Both the position numbers and the translations under genes were made by a program. Below the pieces are notes generated by a model. The model worked only from the letters and a program-made list of their open reading frames with translations, did no database searches and was not told the origin of the DNA. From NCBI RefSeq assembly GCF_002214525.1, contig NZ_CP015104.1, positions 1,364,001 through 1,428,000 of the forward strand: a stretch of DNA of 64,000 nt, written 5' to 3'. Within the stretch, counting starts at the first letter, position 1, and each line of letters opens with the position of its first letter. Shown in pieces: positions 35,084 through 50,856 of this stretch. The DNA is from Thermococcus sp. P6 (lineage in GTDB: Archaea > Methanobacteriota_B > Thermococci > Thermococcales > Thermococcaceae).

Positions 35084-36379
35084 TCAATTCCTTCTCAGCA
35101 TGAGAACGATCAGGCCGAGCAGTACCAGAATCCCGGGGCCGCAGATGGACTGCTTTGAGGGAAGGAACTCTGTGAGGTCCAGCAGGTAGACCTCACCGCT
35201 TCCGGTTCCAAGCAGTGCCATGTCTCCATTTATGGATATACTCCTCACGTAGCCCGTGTCCAGTTCGTTCAGGATCTTTCCGTCTTCCCTCGAGATCAGG
35301 TACACCTTGCCCTCACTGTACACCATGGTTCTGTTACCCTCTTCTTTCTGTTCAAACTTGCCGGTTCCCACGAGCAGGTATTCGTTGTAGGCCTTAACCA
35401 CTTTCCCCCTGTAAGGTAGGGAAACCTCCCAGAGCGTATCTCCCGTGTTCAGGTCAACGGCAACCAGTTTTCCGGATGTGCCTTCTATCCCGGCAATATA
35501 ACCGGTGTCATTGACTATCTCTATATCCTCAACGTAGAAAAGGTCCTTTTTCCATTTTATGTTTCCATTTTTGTCAATCAGGTATAACTCCCCAGCAACG
35601 TTGTCGAACCCCGTTCCCACAACAACGTTTCCTCTCCACGTCTCCATGTCCCTAACCCACCACCGGGTGTCCAGTTTCCACAGCAGTTTTCCGTCTTTTG
35701 AGATACCGTACAGGTAACCGAAGTTGTACTTCATGGTGTAACCCGAGGGGGCACCCGCACCTGCGTATATCACGTCCCCCACTCTCACCCGTCCTATGGT
35801 GCCGTTCAGTTCTACAAACCACTCCTGCCTGATTTTATCCCCATCAATGTCCCACCTGTACACCCTCCCCCATGTTTCGTTTTTCGCCCCTTCGCCGATC
35901 CACCAGCCGTCGGCAACGTACAGTGCCTTTCCCTCAATATCAAAGTCAAAGAAGCTTCCGTAGGTTATGTTGCCTGCCAAGATAGAGCCGTTTCTGGAAA
36001 CGAGCCATACTTTTCCCAGAGTGCCGAAAAAGTTGCTCGGTCCCCTGCTTATGTCCACCCCCACCACAAGGGTTTTTCCCGTGGAGGAGAGCTTCCTTAC
36101 GAATCCCACAGGCCGTTCCCATAGTTCCGTCCCGTTTAAGGAAAATGCCGAGATGTTTCCTCCGTACCATATTATCGTGGTGTTCAGCTTTGGAGCGGTT
36201 ACGTAGGAGATGTAACCACAGCCGGCGTATGCGGTGTTGTTTTCCAGATAGACGCTCTCCACGGTTTTCTGAAATTCCGTTCCAGTACAGACGCCCTTTT
36301 TCCATATCACCGGGGAGTCAGCTCGGGCGTATGGTAAAAGGAGCAGTGAGAGTATTAGTACTGCCATTAACCTCCTCAT
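35084..36379 (-). CDS. CGP-CTERM surface protein with PQQ-type beta-propeller
   Basis: This 431-aa protein has a signal peptide (RRLMAVLILSLLLLPYARA), repeated blades with Trp and Asp pairs typical of quinoprotein-like propellers (TLWEVSLPY, KLLWKLDTRWW and NIKWKKDLF), and a C-terminal CGP-CTERM sorting motif: ICGPGILVLLGLIVLML then RRN. CGP-CTERM occurs in Thermococcales surface proteins, which are anchored after processing. Ligand or enzymatic function is unknown. ATG 36379 follows GGAGGGATAAAA. It shares a palindromic TATA element with the divergent HEAT-repeat gene. Confidence 0.8.
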   Translation of the reverse strand: MRRLMAVLILSLLLLPYARADSPVIWKKGVCTGTEFQKTVESVYLENNTAYAGCGYISYVTAPKLNTTIIWYGGNISAFSLNGTELWERPVGFVRKLSSTGKTLVVGVDISRGPSNFFGTLGKVWLVSRNGSILAGNITYGSFFDFDIEGKALYVADGWWIGEGAKNETWGRVYRWDIDGDKIRQEWFVELNGTIGRVRVGDVIYAGAGAPSGYTMKYNFGYLYGISKDGKLLWKLDTRWWVRDMETWRGNVVVGTGFDNVAGELYLIDKNGNIKWKKDLFYVEDIEIVNDTGYIAGIEGTSGKLVAVDLNTGDTLWEVSLPYRGKVVKAYNEYLLVGTGKFEQKEEGNRTMVYSEGKVYLISREDGKILNELDTGYVRSISINGDMALLGTGSGEVYLLDLTEFLPSKQSICGPGILVLLGLIVLMLRRN

Positions 36380-36410
36380 TTTTATCCCTCCGAGGGGGTC
36401 GGGTTAAAGT

Positions 36411-36418
36411 TATATATA
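36411..36418. promoter_or_regulatory. Symmetrical TATA element serving two divergent genes
   Basis: TATATATA reads the same on both strands. On the plus strand it lies about 33 bp before the HEAT-repeat ATG 36448; on the minus strand about 36 bp before the CGP-CTERM ATG 36379. Each fits a 25-bp TATA-to-start distance with a short leader. No second TATA box is visible between the genes. Confidence 0.5.
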
Positions 36419-36447
36419 TGTTTCGTGAACTTAACACGGTGGGGTGG

Positions 36448-37197
36448 ATGGCCGAGGAGGAAGAGGTGGACATCAGGGAGATGCTGGCGGAGGGGAAGGA
36501 TTTAGACAAGCTTGTCATACTTGCCAGGAGCAGGGACGGGTATTTTAAAAAGCTTATAGAATGTCTGGATGATGATTTGTGGGTGGTCTCAAAGAATGCT
36601 CTGGTGGTAATAAGGGAGCTTCTGGAAGAAAAGGATGAGATTCAGGAGCCCCTTGCAACCAAACTGGTCTCCATGGTCAGGAAGAGTGAGGCGACCCTTC
36701 TCACGTACGAAATCGGGAAGACCTTTGGAAAACTTGCCGTGCTCGAGCCCCCTTTAATACGGCGGATGATACCGATTCTGTTTGCCAACTACAATATCGG
36801 CAATCCAAAAGTTAAAATAAACATGACCTATGTCATTGAAGAGATAGCGAGGAGCAATCCCAACCTGCTGGCTTCTGTAATAGGAGACGTTAAAAAAATG
36901 CTGTATTCCAACAGTAGAGACGACATTCTGGTGGCCCTCAACTTCATAGCCGCGCTCGGGGGACATAATTTCGTCTATGTGGCCCCTTACCTTCCCCGGC
37001 TTCTTGATCTGCTCCATCATGAAAACGAGGTTGTAAGGGCGGCTGCCATTGAAACCCTGAGCGATCTGGCGATGAACAACAGGAAACTTAGAAAGGTGGT
37101 GATTGAAAAGCTGGAGGAGTTGAACGATCCGGATTCACTCGTGAGGAGGGTTACCCGGGAGAACATATCTAAACTGATGGCCGCCGAGAAGGGTTAA
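36448..37197 (+). CDS. HEAT-repeat protein
   Basis: This 249-aa cytoplasmic protein begins with an acidic AEEEEVDIREML and consists of paired helices of about 35 residues, e.g. DDLWVVSKNALVVIRELLEE and NEVVRAAAIETLSDLA, typical of HEAT/Armadillo repeats that bind other proteins. No enzymatic motif is present. ATG 36448 is the first after the TATA element. Its end overlaps by 4 bp the convergent coiled-coil gene that belongs to the archaellum gene train, so a scaffold or adaptor role there is possible but unproven. Confidence 0.7.
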   Translation: MAEEEEVDIREMLAEGKDLDKLVILARSRDGYFKKLIECLDDDLWVVSKNALVVIRELLEEKDEIQEPLATKLVSMVRKSEATLLTYEIGKTFGKLAVLEPPLIRRMIPILFANYNIGNPKVKINMTYVIEEIARSNPNLLASVIGDVKKMLYSNSRDDILVALNFIAALGGHNFVYVAPYLPRLLDLLHHENEVVRAAAIETLSDLAMNNRKLRKVVIEKLEELNDPDSLVRRVTRENISKLMAAEKG

Positions 37198-38180
37198 ACC
37201 TCCTCTTCCTCTTTTTTGCCCTTCATGAGTTCTTCCAGCGTTCTATTTAATTTTGAATTCTCCTCCCTGAGTTGCTCGTTTTTCTGTTTCAGTTCCTCTA
37301 TCTGGACGAGAAGTTTCTTCGTTTCCTCCACCAATTGTCTTACTTTTGTCCTTGGAACGTATTCCTTAAGTTTCCTCAACGCTTCCTCTGTATCGTTTGT
37401 CCCCGTGAGTCCCGTAAGGAACGCCTTTATGGAGGTTAACTCATCTATTGCCTCACGGTATTTTCCGAGCTCCTTTTCTATGTCCTCAACAGTTTCCAGC
37501 TGCTTTTGAAGCGTTGCAATCTTCTGTTTTAGTTCGGCAATAAGGCGGTTCTTGGCTTTGACCTCTTCTTTTAGGGAATAGTTCTCCCTTAAAATATCCT
37601 CATAATGGCTCTGGATTTCCTTCAATGTTTTTGCCAGATCAACGCTGACTCCAAGCGCTTCTCTTCTTAACCCTTCCTCCAGTTCCTTGAGTCTCTCCTG
37701 GAGTATCCTGTTGATCTCTTCCTCAATTTTTTCTTCGTAGATGTCCTTTAACTTGTTCGCCACTTCTATCGGGTAGTACTCCAGTCTTTCTTCCAGCTCG
37801 TTGATGCGGGGAAGCACCTTGTTCAGATTGCTCAGTACGAGCGTTTCCCTCTCCAGTTGCTCTATTCTGTCTTCCAGCCCTTTTATCTCTTTTTCCAGTC
37901 GGTTGTATTTCTGTTCGTATTCCGATCTGACCGACTCGAGTCTCATATTCAAATTCTCCACTTGGTCTATGGAGTACTCAACCCTACTTTTAAGTTCTTT
38001 ATAAACCTCCGTTATGGCGGTCAGGCAGACGATGGAGTAATCCCCTATCCCCTCCGCTTCCACGACCGAGCCCTTGATCTTTTCCCACTGCTCCAGTGCC
38101 TTCAGATCCTCAACTAAGTCCGGATGCTTCTTTTTTAAATAATTCCACGAAACTCGTGTATTTTTCTTTTTTTCAAACAT
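37194..38180 (-). CDS. Long coiled-coil protein downstream of the archaellum operon
   Basis: This 328-aa protein starts at ATG 38180, behind GGTGAAGAAG. After about 60 residues of folded sequence (WNYLKKKHPDLVEDLKAL) it is almost entirely heptad-like and rich in Glu, Lys and Leu, a long coiled coil with no signal peptide. It is encoded immediately after the secreted protein coupled to arlJ; the start codon lies 24 bp inside the previous gene. Structural or scaffold work in the archaellum base or polar cap is one idea. It might equally be an unrelated cytoskeletal-like protein. Confidence 0.65.
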   Translation of the reverse strand: MFEKKKNTRVSWNYLKKKHPDLVEDLKALEQWEKIKGSVVEAEGIGDYSIVCLTAITEVYKELKSRVEYSIDQVENLNMRLESVRSEYEQKYNRLEKEIKGLEDRIEQLERETLVLSNLNKVLPRINELEERLEYYPIEVANKLKDIYEEKIEEEINRILQERLKELEEGLRREALGVSVDLAKTLKEIQSHYEDILRENYSLKEEVKAKNRLIAELKQKIATLQKQLETVEDIEKELGKYREAIDELTSIKAFLTGLTGTNDTEEALRKLKEYVPRTKVRQLVEETKKLLVQIEELKQKNEQLREENSKLNRTLEELMKGKKEEEEV

Positions 38181-38203
38181 CTTCTTCACCCCGGTTGGGA
38201 ACA

Positions 38204-40153
38204 TCACCCGGTTCGAGACTGTATCCATGCGATTATTATGATGACAGCTGCGCCGATCACCATTCCGATTCCTGAAAAAACGATCTTTGACTTTAACGGG
38301 GTGTATGGAACCGTGATTGTTTGGTTTACGATTTTCTCAACTTCTATGGGTACCTTTTTCTCCACGTACTCCGTTCTGTTCACATAGACAACACGGGGGG
38401 TGCACGTGACGTTTTGATTGGGAGTAACGTTTTCCTGAGGAGCTTCCTCTGAGATGAACTTCAGTGGGACACTAAGCCGGGCTATGGTACGGTTCCCAAA
38501 GATGATCTGCCCTTCGATCGACAGGTTGTTTTCGGTTAGGGCGATCAGTGACAGCTTTATCTCCTTGGATTGGTTGGGCGCCAAGTAAAGGGAGCCTTCC
38601 ACGTATGGATAGTTGAAGGACACCTCCTCAAGTTTAACGACTGCGAACTTTTCCACCGGCATCCTGAAGGTAACGGGGACTTTTACGTTTCCGGAATTCC
38701 GGATCTCCACCCTAACATCGAAAGGATCGCGTCCAACAGCCTCCGGGGCTGTTATGCTGATGTTGTACTTCAGTTCCGCTTTTTCAATGTACGCTCTAAC
38801 GGGTAGCGATGCAATCTCTATGGTACCGTTGTTGCAGTTTAGTCCCTTTGGCGAAGGGGCTTTTACGATTATGTTTCCAAGGGTCAGGTTACCGAACTCC
38901 TCGTCAACTGCAACGTAGAACTTTAGCCGGTATGAGGACCCTGCCCCTATCTTCGGGATGGTGACCCGGGACCCGTTTAACAGCCTCACGTTTGAAGAGG
39001 GAACATAGTTAACCTCCACGTTTTCAACGTCTTTGTTCTCGTTGTTCTTTACCGTGACCTCGATGGGGAAACTTTCGTACTGAACCGCTCTGGATGGAGA
39101 GTTCACCGTGACGTCGAGTTTTGGAGGAATATCATCGTACTTGAGGATGGATTTGTTTGATACGAACGTGATAACGGTTATTCTTCTGGGGGTTGCGTTG
39201 AGGCTCATACTCAGGACGCTTACCTCGAGTTCACGGTAGTTCAACGCTTTGAATACATCCTGAGGGGTTATTAGGGCACCTGTCAGTTCCTCCCCGCACA
39301 GGTTCGTTATTCTTAAATAAACGTGTGATGGGTCGATGTAGGTGAAACCAATTAAATAAGGCCCAAATCTTACAGTTTCTCCCTCGTTTATGATATTCTC
39401 GAAACCGGGATTTACACTGACATCAACGAAGGCTCCCTTTAGGTATGCGTTCACTTTGGCGTAGACGTTGGAGTCGTTGACTATAATCCTCTCCACACTG
39501 ACCACGAAAGCACTGGTTTCCACCGTTTCTCCAACCTGCACCTCGTAGGTGCTTCCGTTTTCCCTGAACTCCAGCACGTTAACGTATTCTCCTGAGCTGT
39601 TCTCGACCCTTACCTTCTCAAACAACAGGGAACGTGAATAGAAATCTATGGACTCCCCCTCCTTCAGATATCCGGAGTAGACTTCCGGAAAGGGGGTGGC
39701 GTTTATTTTCAGGGGTCCGTACTCTATCTTCGGCGTGGTGAACTCCCTGGTCTCATTCCCCTCCGTGATCGCAATCCTCAGACCATCCTTTCTTGAAGAG
39801 AGCAATGAGATCGAGTAGTTCCCTATCTTCATGCTCTCCCCTTCCAGCAAATAGGGATAATCCAGGGAAAGGTGGGCGTATATCCTCTCGCCCATCACGA
39901 TCCCGTCCACGAGAAAAGACGATCCCATCAGTGACAGAGAATCTCCAACTTTGAGGTATCTCATGGTGGAGTTGTTGGCAGATTCAACTTGTATGAGGTA
40001 TCCCGAACCGTCGGCAGAGACGTCCTGTAACCTGAGGGTGTAATCAGGGAGGGTGATGCTGAACGGAACTTCCAGCCAGCCGGTTATAACCGAAGCACTT
40101 GCCGGGGGCAGGAAGAGGGCCAGAATGAACATGATAACCACGAGCTTTTTCAT
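38204..40153 (-). CDS. Secreted, membrane-anchored S-layer-like protein coupled to arlJ
   Basis: This 649-aa protein has a signal peptide (KKLVVIMFILALFLPPASAS), a long extracellular part with many beta-strands and repeated phrases such as LKEGESIDFYSR and INEGETVRFGPY, and from about residue 350 a COG1361-like (S-layer/NEW3-type) module. A C-terminal hydrophobic segment (GIGMVIGAAVIIIIAW) anchors it. Several N-x-S/T sites fit glycosylation. The start overlaps the arlJ stop by 4 bp (ATGA), so it is co-translated with archaellum genes. Its role in the machine, for example in the wall around the filament, is inference. Confidence 0.7.
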   Translation of the reverse strand: MKKLVVIMFILALFLPPASASVITGWLEVPFSITLPDYTLRLQDVSADGSGYLIQVESANNSTMRYLKVGDSLSLMGSSFLVDGIVMGERIYAHLSLDYPYLLEGESMKIGNYSISLLSSRKDGLRIAITEGNETREFTTPKIEYGPLKINATPFPEVYSGYLKEGESIDFYSRSLLFEKVRVENSSGEYVNVLEFRENGSTYEVQVGETVETSAFVVSVERIIVNDSNVYAKVNAYLKGAFVDVSVNPGFENIINEGETVRFGPYLIGFTYIDPSHVYLRITNLCGEELTGALITPQDVFKALNYRELEVSVLSMSLNATPRRITVITFVSNKSILKYDDIPPKLDVTVNSPSRAVQYESFPIEVTVKNNENKDVENVEVNYVPSSNVRLLNGSRVTIPKIGAGSSYRLKFYVAVDEEFGNLTLGNIIVKAPSPKGLNCNNGTIEIASLPVRAYIEKAELKYNISITAPEAVGRDPFDVRVEIRNSGNVKVPVTFRMPVEKFAVVKLEEVSFNYPYVEGSLYLAPNQSKEIKLSLIALTENNLSIEGQIIFGNRTIARLSVPLKFISEEAPQENVTPNQNVTCTPRVVYVNRTEYVEKKVPIEVEKIVNQTITVPYTPLKSKIVFSGIGMVIGAAVIIIIAWIQSRTG

Positions 40154-41862
40154 GGTACGCTCCCCCCTTTGAGTACCAGAAGGAACACCTCACTCGCCCC
40201 GAACTTCAGCATTTTCGCCATGAGCATCTGCCCAAAGTACATTCCCACTGCGAATATCCAGATAAGGATCACGAAGTAATACAACGTTGCCAGAAGGTTT
40301 CCCCCGTCGGAGAATTTTATTACAAGGGATGAGATTAATGAGTGTATGACCATGAGCAACAGCATCATCGCGGTTAACAGCACTAATCCCGCGGGTTCGA
40401 TAACGTGTATTAAGCTTCCTATGTATTCACTGGGCACCTCCATTTTTCCGAAGATCTCACCTATCGATACGGCAACCTGGAACGACGATGCCAGGGTGAA
40501 TGCAAATGCTCCGGTTAGCCCGTAGATGACACCTATGAAACTTGCCACGCTCTGGGATCTTTTTCTTCTCATTCTAACCATTCTTTCAAAGTTTCTTGAG
40601 ATCACCTTGCCTACGTAGTCCGGCTCAGCGCCCAGCTTGATACTTTCCCTGAACATCTCCGAAAACATACCTATGAGCCAGCTCCCCGTCTCGGCGATAA
40701 AGTAATCCCATGCCGCTTCGTCGTTGATCCTGACGGCGAGTCTTTTGTATAACGCCCTGATTCTTTCGGTCAGGCTGCCGAAGTCATGGGCGCTTAGATA
40801 TTTCAGAACTGAGACCATGGATGACCCGCTCGCCGCCAGTGTGGAGCTTAGACTGCGTATGAACGCCGGGAAGTTTTCATCCATAACGTAAATACTCTCT
40901 TCTTCCCTTTTCGTGAGCCATCCGGCGTATGCCAGCGGCGTTGAAACAAGGGCTATGACAAATTGATAGGGGATGTTAAACCGGTTTCTCAGCAACAGCA
41001 CGTAAATTAAGCCCATAACGACCGTACCGAGGATGGAGATTCTTAAGGCCCTCCTGAGTTTTCTCGTTCTTTCTGTGGGTATCTGTTTTTCCGCCCAGAC
41101 GGGGTCTTCGGGCATCCTGTACCTTATGAAAAAGAGGATTCCCAGTTCCGAGGCCAGTATTATTGCCACCAGATATATTGAGAGCCTTGCTATGCTCTGT
41201 CCCGTGATTATGGGGCCTATAATGATGAACGATGCTATGAAAACCACGGAAATTATTATTGATTCATAAATCTCCTTAAAAACATCAAGATCGTACAGTG
41301 CCCCTTCGTAAAACGTCTGAAAATCGTCCATGACGGTCGTCTGCTCTTGGAATAGGTAATCTTTGAGTTCCACACCGCTGTCCAGGGAGTAGGCCAGCCT
41401 GTCTAAAAAATCTGCAAACACCTTGCTCGGAGTTCTTCTGGCGAGAAACCTAAAAGCCTCAGGTAGACTCCTGTGGAGTTTTCCAACTATTGTGTACACT
41501 TTCTTCAGCTCGCTGGCTATCGCTCCGAGTTTGTCGTTCTCGGACAATATTTTTATTAACTCGTCCCTCGAAACCTCACTGGTCGACAGGGTCGCGAAGT
41601 ACGTTATGAAGAAGGGAATCTTGGAGTTTATTGAAATCTTTTTACTATCCGCTACGAAATAGGGGTAAAAGGCGGCGTATATCATGACTACAAGTGGAAT
41701 GAGATAGAGGAGAACTTTAAACCCCGTGGGAAGGGATACAAACCTTACCAGAACACTTGTGGCTATAACCAATACAACGGTTAAAATAATGGAGGGGAGG
41801 AGTATCCTTCTGAGGTACTTCTTCATTGAGAGATCCGCCTTTACAAAGATACTGGTTCCCAT
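40150..41862 (-). CDS. arlJ: Archaellum membrane platform protein ArlJ (FlaJ)
   Basis: This 570-aa integral membrane protein is related to type II/IV secretion TadC/GspF, with two clusters of hydrophobic segments near each end and a large cytoplasmic loop holding the conserved basic region around RMRRKRSQSVASF. It anchors the motor ATPase ArlI. The order ArlH-ArlI-ArlJ and the length are typical for Euryarchaea. ATG 41862 follows GAGGTGGGGAGCCT. Confidence 0.9.
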   Translation of the reverse strand: MGTSIFVKADLSMKKYLRRILLPSIILTVVLVIATSVLVRFVSLPTGFKVLLYLIPLVVMIYAAFYPYFVADSKKISINSKIPFFITYFATLSTSEVSRDELIKILSENDKLGAIASELKKVYTIVGKLHRSLPEAFRFLARRTPSKVFADFLDRLAYSLDSGVELKDYLFQEQTTVMDDFQTFYEGALYDLDVFKEIYESIIISVVFIASFIIIGPIITGQSIARLSIYLVAIILASELGILFFIRYRMPEDPVWAEKQIPTERTRKLRRALRISILGTVVMGLIYVLLLRNRFNIPYQFVIALVSTPLAYAGWLTKREEESIYVMDENFPAFIRSLSSTLAASGSSMVSVLKYLSAHDFGSLTERIRALYKRLAVRINDEAAWDYFIAETGSWLIGMFSEMFRESIKLGAEPDYVGKVISRNFERMVRMRRKRSQSVASFIGVIYGLTGAFAFTLASSFQVAVSIGEIFGKMEVPSEYIGSLIHVIEPAGLVLLTAMMLLLMVIHSLISSLVIKFSDGGNLLATLYYFVILIWIFAVGMYFGQMLMAKMLKFGASEVFLLVLKGGSVP

Positions 41863-45208: not shown

Positions 45209-46402
45209 TTAGACGCCGTAGAACTCATCGAGTGTCTTCTCCAGAGTTTTGATTTCCCTTTCCAGTTTGTCAAGCACGTCCCTGTTTATCCTCAGCCCCC
45301 TGAGGCGTTCAATAAACAGCAACGAGATCAGGTGGTCCTGCACGGTAAGTTTCTCTGCGGGTTTCCATTCAGGATCTCTGTGGTGAGGTCTGGTGCCTTT
45401 GGCGTACCTCAACAGGGTATTCAGCACGTTTTCGCTTATCCATCCTATCTCGTAGTAGAACTCAAGTACGTTCTCAAGGTTCTGTATACCCACCCTGTCG
45501 ATAAGGAAGCCCAGCCACTTGAGTGCTATCATCGTTGATACCATGTCCTCGGGAATAGCTTTGAGACGGTAATTTTTGGGTTCTTCCTCAAACAGCAGTT
45601 TTGCAAACTCCTCAGGGACTTCAATCTTCCCTTCGGCCATCTCAACTTCACCCCCTTCCGATTTCCTGGTAACCTCCTCTTCGGAGGCGGCCTTAAACTC
45701 TTCTTCGTGAACTTCCACTTCGGGAACCTCTTCTTGAGGAGTCTCTTCTTCAACAACCTCCCCCGTAGGGGCTTTCTCTTCGGGAACCTCCACTTCAGGT
45801 TGTTCTTCGGTCTCTTCCGCTTCCACATGAACTTCTTCTTCCTTGTGAACTTCTTCCTTCGAAGGGATCTCCTCCACCACAGGCTTTTCTTCAACCACCT
45901 CTGGGGTGATACGCTCCTCTTCCCGGAACCTGGTTTCGGGCACTTTGGACTCTTCGGGCTTCTTGCTCGCCTCGAGCTTTTCATGAAGACCCCTTACTTC
46001 TTCCTTAATCTCCTCGACTTTCTCGAGCTTTTCGCCAAGACCCTTTACCTTTTCCTTAACTTCCTCGACTTTTTCTCCCAGGTTTTCAGCCCTCTTCTCA
46101 TATACGGTGTACTTGGCTTCCTCCAGACTTTCAAGCAGTTGTGATAACTGGGCACTGAGATCGTTTAGTCTCTTTCCCATCTCGTCGACTTTCTTGTTGA
46201 TCTGTTCGTATTTGCTGAACTGGTTCCCATACACTTCGAGAGTCTTTTTAACGATCCTGTCCAGATGTTCAGGTGTTAGTTCATCCTTCTTTGCAAGTAG
46301 CTTCTCCCTGAGGTCGTTTATGATGACACTCGGAACTTTGCCCCTCAGCTCGGCGAGCTTTGCATTGATGTCCGCTTCGGTCACGTAACTTGTAACCTCC
46401 AT
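45209..46402 (-). CDS. arlD: Archaellum cytoplasmic ring protein ArlD/ArlE-type (FlaD/E)
   Basis: This 397-aa protein has three parts. The first 150 residues are helical coiled coil (EQINKKVDEMGKRL). Residues about 150-275 are low-complexity and rich in Glu, Val and Pro. The last 110 residues hold the FlaD/E domain (WLGFLIDRVGIQNLENVLEF and LRYAKGTRPHHRDPEW). ArlCDE connect the motor with chemotaxis via CheF and the polar cap. The acidic linker is unusually long. ATG 46402 follows GGAGGTGTAACGC. Confidence 0.88.
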   Translation of the reverse strand: MEVTSYVTEADINAKLAELRGKVPSVIINDLREKLLAKKDELTPEHLDRIVKKTLEVYGNQFSKYEQINKKVDEMGKRLNDLSAQLSQLLESLEEAKYTVYEKRAENLGEKVEEVKEKVKGLGEKLEKVEEIKEEVRGLHEKLEASKKPEESKVPETRFREEERITPEVVEEKPVVEEIPSKEEVHKEEEVHVEAEETEEQPEVEVPEEKAPTGEVVEEETPQEEVPEVEVHEEEFKAASEEEVTRKSEGGEVEMAEGKIEVPEEFAKLLFEEEPKNYRLKAIPEDMVSTMIALKWLGFLIDRVGIQNLENVLEFYYEIGWISENVLNTLLRYAKGTRPHHRDPEWKPAEKLTVQDHLISLLFIERLRGLRINRDVLDKLEREIKTLEKTLDEFYGV

Positions 46403-49386: not shown

Positions 49387-49432
49387 TTTTATATACGCTT
49401 TTTTTGTTTTTAGTTATGTAATTGGTTATGTA
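49387..49432 (-). promoter_or_regulatory. Archaellum promoter: TATA box with two TACATA (EarA-type) boxes
   Basis: On the minus strand two TACATA hexamers, at 49432-49427 and 49420-49415, are exactly 12 bp apart (TACATAACCAATTACATA), followed by GTATATAAAA at 49396-49387. The TATA box is about 25 bp from the likely transcription start near 49364, giving a short leader with GGAGGTG. TACATA is the motif reported for EarA binding in front of the Methanococcus maripaludis archaellum operon. An earA-like gene lies 1.2 kb upstream. Confidence 0.6.
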
Positions 49433-49581
49433 GGTATCAATGTAAGTGGAGAAGGGACATGGGGGGCGCCTTGGTATTGTTGTAATTTCGTAAAGTATTT
49501 GGAAAAATTCTGGTATTGTTGACCTCCTTGGGACACGATGATATAGGAGATTTAGACAAAGAATTATAAAAGAGAAGATAT

Positions 49582-50535: not shown

Positions 50536-50856
50536 TCACCAGAACTTCTTGTAGTAGGGGTAGTAAGTTTTTAAATACTCCATAACTTTTTTTCCGTACT
50601 CTGTGAGCTTATAGTATTTGAAACCATTGTTGTGAACCTCTTCGACGAGGCCCAGATATACCAGAGAGCTGTCACCGTTGTATCGGTTTCCCAGTCCTAC
50701 CAGCGCCCCCCTAACGTTGGATGGGTCGGAACCTACGTTCCTTGCAATCTCTGACAGGTACGTTGCGGAAGGGTAAATCTGGTATAGGTGCATTAGTATC
50801 CTCCTCCTCAGATCACTCCTGTGGAGGGATCGTAATATATGGGGATCAATATACAT
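50536..50856 (-). CDS. earA: EarA-like winged-helix regulator of archaellum genes
   Basis: This 106-aa protein is a winged helix (DLRRRILMHLYQIYPSATYL, then SEIARNVGSDPSNVRGALVG as recognition helices). EarA of Euryarchaea is a small HTH protein encoded next to the archaellum operon that activates its transcription. The position and the TACATA boxes upstream of arlB1 fit. TACATA-like sequences also occur at 50852-50857 and 50884-50889 near its own start, on the other strand. ATG 50856 follows GGAGGGTGCAGAT. Confidence 0.75.
   Translation of the reverse strand: MYIDPHILRSLHRSDLRRRILMHLYQIYPSATYLSEIARNVGSDPSNVRGALVGLGNRYNGDSSLVYLGLVEEVHNNGFKYYKLTEYGKKVMEYLKTYYPYYKKFW

Follow-up and report, generated by a model that had tools for sequence, protein, structure and literature searches.

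What lies beyond arlJ, the last gene of the archaellum (arl) operon of Thermococcus sp. P6, and does it belong to the archaellum? The question is raised by a 64,000-nucleotide stretch of contig NZ_CP015104.1 (positions 1,364,001 to 1,428,000; hereafter, the window) of this 1.52 Mb Thermococcaceae genome, in which arlJ is followed by a gene for a secreted protein of 649 amino acids (P649), a gene for a coiled-coil protein (CC), a gene on the opposite strand for a HEAT-repeat protein (HEAT), and a gene for a secreted β-propeller (PQQ). An earlier note on this DNA had taken P649, CC and HEAT together as one extension of the operon. We surveyed the genes in 94 genomes of the family, and conserved homologues of the three were found in 42 to 65 of them; the genes thus exceed chance. 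On balance, we consider it probable that CC and HEAT make up a dedicated cytoplasmic accessory module of the motor of one of two archaellum types (type 1), and that P649 is a separate component common to both types. This reading draws on the co-occurrence of CC and HEAT with type 1, the repeated switches between types, the independence of the pair from chemotaxis, the broken pairs in broken clusters, the regulatory box ahead of CC, the long ArlD of type 1, and the co-regulation of TK0050, the counterpart of P649 in T. kodakarensis.

The two types are the two clades of an ArlJ tree: type 1, with 64–72% identity to the query, and type 2, with 51–58%. CC and HEAT were both present in 40 of the 41 type-1 genomes and in none of the 32 type-2 genomes. 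The sole exception, G085 (survey genomes carry G numbers and extracted loci L numbers), is 61% complete. On a tree of elongation factor 2 (EF-2) from 87 genomes, the archaellum type switches at least 13 times, and CC and HEAT switch with it in nine out of nine independent pairs (sign test, p = 0.004), or in 11–12 of 12 when all genomes are counted. A profile search for CC in the type-2 genomes gave only weak coiled-coil noise. A replacement coiled-coil gene beside the type-2 clusters was looked for but not found; the recurring flanking genes there resemble housekeeping genes. The types also differ in ArlD/E, which is 388–483 residues long in type 1 (with one split case) and 266–301 residues in type 2, as measured in the window and in loci L127–L166. 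An acidic, KE-rich linker makes type-1 ArlD ≈90–200 residues longer than its type-2 counterpart.

CC and HEAT often stand beside che genes, and CheW correlates with them in about seven of the nine independent pairs. Together with boxes bearing one mismatch that precede genes for methyl-accepting receptors (see below), this would suit a role as signalling adaptors between the receptor array and the motor. However, CheW tracks the pair less strictly than the archaellum type does, and the two dissociate in both directions. Three near-complete type-1 genomes (G000, G015 and G089) retain CC and HEAT without CheW and CheF, while two type-2 genomes (G002 and G093) have chemotaxis but lack the pair. 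The pair is thus independent of the chemotaxis genes both ways, and we disfavour the adaptor explanation as very improbable. A further genome, G041, lacks CheW and CheF as well as an intact pair, and its arl cluster is damaged. As a separate observation, G000 is 99% complete and has an apparently intact arl operon, yet neither CheW nor CheF was detected in it; this organism apparently has archaella without chemotaxis.

The usual type-1 order is CC and HEAT facing each other, then PQQ in the direction of CC, in some cases che genes, earA, fam, arlB to arlJ, and P649. In the other type-1 clusters examined, CC and HEAT occupy the cluster's upstream end or some other place, and it is in the present genome only that they lie past P649; in one subclade, CC is inverted and 2 kb of unrelated genes separate it from HEAT. 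CC and HEAT are therefore a convergent pair that is separate from P649. The conservation after arlJ that the earlier idea of a joint extension calls for is seen for P649, which keeps that place in both archaellum types, but not for CC and HEAT. Nevertheless, all three genes are linked to the archaellum, P649 by its position, and CC and HEAT by their co-occurrence with type 1, their switches and the box ahead of CC.

The linkage of CC and HEAT to arl is tight in most genomes, and the switches of arl type resemble transfers, so the pair might simply travel as passengers of a transferred arl block, with no role in the archaellum. Several observations make this quite unlikely. The pair was retained after separation from arlJ in G025, and the box in the CC promoter is conserved amid diverged flanks. 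No intact pair was found in any complete archaellum-less genome, and in three genomes a decayed arl cluster goes with a decayed pair. In G041, the remnant of arlI abuts a truncated HEAT; G020 has kept CC and a fragment of arlJ but no HEAT; and in G076, which lacks arlJ, CC is interrupted by ≈0.8 kb (L278:6491-8378).

A study of the archaellum regulator EarA gives A(C/G)(C/G)TACA(T/C) as its candidate site upstream of arlB0 (PMC10665913). In Thermococcus, the CC promoters contain an invariant CTACACAAAA directly ahead of the TATA box, and the arlB0 promoters of the same genomes share the core CCTACAC with these boxes. We searched 61 genomes of the genus with the composite pattern CCTACACAAAANNTATWTAA, using the reversed pattern as a control. 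By coordinate, 25 exact matches and three matches with TCTACAC fell ahead of CC, of which 27 were confirmed by translation of the locus; the pattern thus precedes CC in 28 of 30 CC-bearing congeners. All exact matches for which the locus was checked belonged to CC, and the reversed control gave one match. In the present genome, an EarA-type box was not found ahead of CC, which instead starts 23 nucleotides past the P649 stop codon; its arl promoter does hold such a box. Some further matches with one mismatch lie ahead of genes that read as methyl-accepting chemotaxis receptors. Other sites of EarA-type boxes (L280:6175 in G025, L301:1501 in G042, and L182:1430) comprise such receptor genes and, in G024 (probably T. 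kodakarensis), the gene for a small exported protein of 154 residues. The regulon may thus extend beyond the arl operon.

CC had been described as a long coiled-coil protein whose start lies inside P649. The coiled coil stands, but the start does not. All 33 aligned homologues begin with MF or ML followed by a KK-rich stretch, which matches methionine 17 of the long open reading frame, at window position 38180, and upstream of this codon lies GGGGTGA-AGAAG, including the Shine–Dalgarno sequence GGGGTGA. We conclude that CC starts at 38180 and has 328 residues; it was assigned as the orthologue of TK0033 by counting. The AlphaFold (AF2) model has a small N-terminal head of three helices followed by long helices at residues 49–173, 181–259 and 277–327. 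The C-terminal half has a heptad-like hydrophobic period of 3.46–3.48, and the C-terminal helices are periodic as expected of coiled coils, while the first long helix falls below the threshold that these helices reach. The predicted fold had no match in the PDB, and PF05377 and PF04659 were absent among the matches shown for CC. In a profile search of 115 genomes of the phylum, CC was found only within Thermococcaceae; candidate relatives outside the family were rejected as coiled-coil noise (E ≈ 1e-4 to 1e-5).

HEAT, which was said to converge on CC with a 4-bp overlap, does so: the two stop codons overlap tail to tail in TTAA at 37194-37197. Short overlaps like those at this locus are nothing unusual in a compact archaeal genome. 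The protein matches PF18817 (HEAT_UF) at 58.5 bits (cut-off 30) and PDB entry 2db0 (PH0542) with E = 1.4e-77 over 245 residues (3–247 of 249), and by this sequence match it is the orthologue of PH0542; its counterpart in T. kodakarensis is TK0034.

The three long helices of CC sum to ≈38 nm if straight, compared with a gap of ≈35 nm between the membrane and the polar cap in P. furiosus (PMC5517150). CC, with HEAT, might therefore be a structural part of the polar cap or cytoplasmic cone, serving beneath the archaella as a coiled-coil spacer or as an element of a lattice. Caps have been seen in both Thermococcus and Pyrococcus, and the probable T. kodakarensis genome and all nine Pyrococcus genomes of the survey carry CC and HEAT; both genes are, moreover, independent of chemotaxis. 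However, the match in length is a single number, suggestive at best, and may be due to chance. A cap has also been reported in H. salinarum (PMC5517150), while HEAT_UF gave no match in any of the 14 control genomes, two of which, Haloferax volcanii and Methanocaldococcus jannaschii, come from archaellated species. CC and HEAT could thus at most be a Thermococcales-specific component of the cap, and we regard a structural role there as unlikely.

P649 had been described as a secreted, anchored protein that begins within the stop codon of arlJ, and this was borne out by the ATGA overlap, by the signal-like character of the N-terminus and by a helix at the C-terminal end (residues 620–648). A CARDB domain (PF07705) was matched at residues 346–424 with 26.6 bits (cut-off 22.7; E = 7e-6). 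The AF2 model (mean predicted local distance difference test score, 84) is an all-β chain of β-sandwich domains, with a disordered linker at residues 570–619 ahead of the membrane helix. Comparison of this fold with the PDB returned generic multi-Ig proteins, such as integrin α chains, with a TM-score of ≈0.2, and was uninformative on function.

By gene order, P649 is the orthologue of PF0329 and TK0050. It might be a generic surface protein or adhesin at the end of the operon, unrelated to the motor. In P. furiosus, PF0329 was outside the cotranscripts detected by reverse transcription PCR, but flaJ likewise appeared only as a single transcript (PMC4263178). Paralogues of P649 stand beside ATP-binding cassette (ABC) permeases rather than pili, and ten type-1 genomes forming one subclade lack P649 although their arl clusters are apparently complete; there, arlJ is followed by an isoaspartate methyltransferase-like gene (two loci read through). 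The enzyme corresponds to TK0051 of T. kodakarensis, in which TK0050 takes the P649 position (PMC8155482). Against a generic role, P649 lies immediately past arlJ in the arlJ-bearing genomes of both types, that subclade excepted, and in histone variant strains TK0050 drops 5.4- to 6.5-fold along with the fla operon (PMC8155482). We therefore doubt the generic role, while giving it somewhat more room than the cap. P649 also occurs without CC and HEAT, in type-2 clusters. It is a true arl-operon gene common to both types, but its absence from a clade with apparently complete clusters means that it is neither universal nor an obligatory passage through the wall.

Secreted P649-like proteins of 606–709 residues are encoded directly beside ABC ATPases and permeases in several Thermococcaceae (L182:7002-8948, L183:6662-8638, L185:7966-9786, L186:6873-9002 and L189:8495-10333); the weak relatives of P649 lie beside such genes or between them. 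This suggests a family of proteins that accompany membrane machines on the extracytoplasmic side, and P649 is best read as one such companion, whose exact task we can only infer.

Gene anatomy, co-occurrence, regulatory box and folds were computed, and on them we build a proposal for the docking site, the partnership of CC with HEAT and the mechanical role of the type-1 module. CC most likely has the shape of a rigid rod, a coiled coil that bears a small helical head at its N-terminus, and HEAT, an α-solenoid and thus of a common adaptor fold, would serve as its adaptor. The two probably attach to the motor on its cytosolic side, plausibly at the ArlC/ArlD ring, in which the ArlD linker is much longer only in type 1, and would link the motor to a scaffold at the pole. 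In Thermococcus, CC would be switched on with the archaellum through the EarA-type box; in the present genome, CC would have moved behind arlJ and P649, a place in which its transcription could come from the arl promoter. P649 would stand next to the motor as an extracellular strut, a string of Ig-like domains held by a membrane anchor.

Several points weigh against this proposal. In nearly all complete genomes, CC and HEAT lie within ≈30 kb of arlJ, the exception being G025 (≈410 kb), and joint transfer of a block therefore explains part of the co-occurrence. The box abuts the B recognition element (BRE) at CC but lies ≈9–10 nucleotides upstream of it at arlB0, so the factor acting at CC may be one other than EarA; nor was a box found before CC in Pyrococcus and in three further type-1 genomes from outside Thermococcus. 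That CC binds HEAT, ArlC or ArlD is a supposition of this proposal. Considered as a diverged ArlC or ArlD, CC was rejected, since profile comparison shows no homology to either (hhalign probability, 1.5–12%). Neither CC nor HEAT is named in any experiment.

The position of P649 is already known, as that of a hypothetical gene. What appears to be new is the tie of CC and HEAT to one archaellum type and the EarA-type box ahead of CC. The pair goes unmentioned in the main texts, as far as these were searched, of a census of archaeal pili (PMC4858521), the study of EarA (PMC10665913) and a review of the archaellum motor (PMC8978795), and of the locus tags, the literature searches turned up only PF0329 and TK0050. 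CC and HEAT bear on the question of which proteins build the archaellum on its cytoplasmic side, the polar cap or cone in particular. Quite tentatively, they could be the first gene candidates for the cytoplasmic structure, specific to Thermococcales, through which archaella are organised at the pole; this could be the polar cap/cone or an outer cytosolic ring. If so, the type-2 relatives without CC and HEAT would be natural mutants lacking that structure. Type-2 species also offer ready-made comparisons. CC, with its EarA-type box, and HEAT, with its crystal structure, offer precise targets for deletion and tagging in the genetically tractable T. kodakarensis.

The features of the locus are collected in Table 1. 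The arl operon runs on the minus strand in the order earA, a gene for 314 residues, the archaellins, ArlC, ArlD/E and ArlFGHIJ. The 314-residue gene occupies the position of fam (PMC4263178). PQQ usually adjoins HEAT in type-1 genomes, most Pyrococcus excepted.

Table 1. Features of the archaellum cluster and its flank, in window coordinates.
Feature	Position	Strand	Basis
PQQ, secreted β-propeller with CGP-CTERM-like tail	35084-36379	-	PF13360, E = 1.7e-11; TIGR04288, E = 0.0068; synteny
Putative HEAT promoter region, TATA-like TTATATATA, start codon ≈30 nucleotides downstream	36405-36447	+	inferred from sequence
HEAT, HEAT-repeat protein, 249 residues	36448-37197	+	PF18817; PDB 2db0 match
CC, coiled-coil protein, 328 residues	37194-38180	-	33-row alignment; AF2 helices
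P649, secreted multi-domain Ig-like/CARDB protein with C-terminal membrane anchor, 649 residues	38204-40153	-	CARDB match; AF2; gene order
arlJ (flaJ), archaellum platform protein, type-1 clade	40150-41862	-	NCBIfam NF004704.2 ArlJ/FlaJ, 741 bits (cut-off 550); ArlJ tree
ArlD/E with long acidic KE-rich linker	45209-46402	-	PF04659; length and alignment
EarA-type box CCTACATAA, promoter upstream of the first archaellin gene	49426-49434	-	pattern match; motif as in PMC10665913
earA, archaellum transcriptional regulator	50536-50856	-	PF07381, E = 1.3e-32

Among known systems, the proposed module resembles the cytosolic ring of ArlCDE or ArlX, which, like CC and HEAT, is cytoplasmic, rich in helices, linked to arlHIJ and variable between lineages. 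CC differs in having no homology to ArlC or ArlD, in lying outside the operon in other genomes and in being absent from type 2. HEAT belongs to the same family as PH0542, which is labelled in the PDB only as a hypothetical protein (2db0); the papers that could be searched gave no archaellum link for it. With the EarA regulon (PMC10665913), the CC promoters of Thermococcus have the CCTACAC core in common, but CC has one box where arlB0 has up to three, and the CC box is not described in the main text of that study. P649, finally, recalls the S-layer-like proteins encoded at archaeal type IV pili loci (PMC4858521): they, too, are large, secreted and equipped with a single C-terminal transmembrane helix, and their genes belong to a pilus-type operon. 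P649 differs from them in its CARDB/Ig-like domains and in that its detected relatives within the family stand beside ABC ATPases and permeases.

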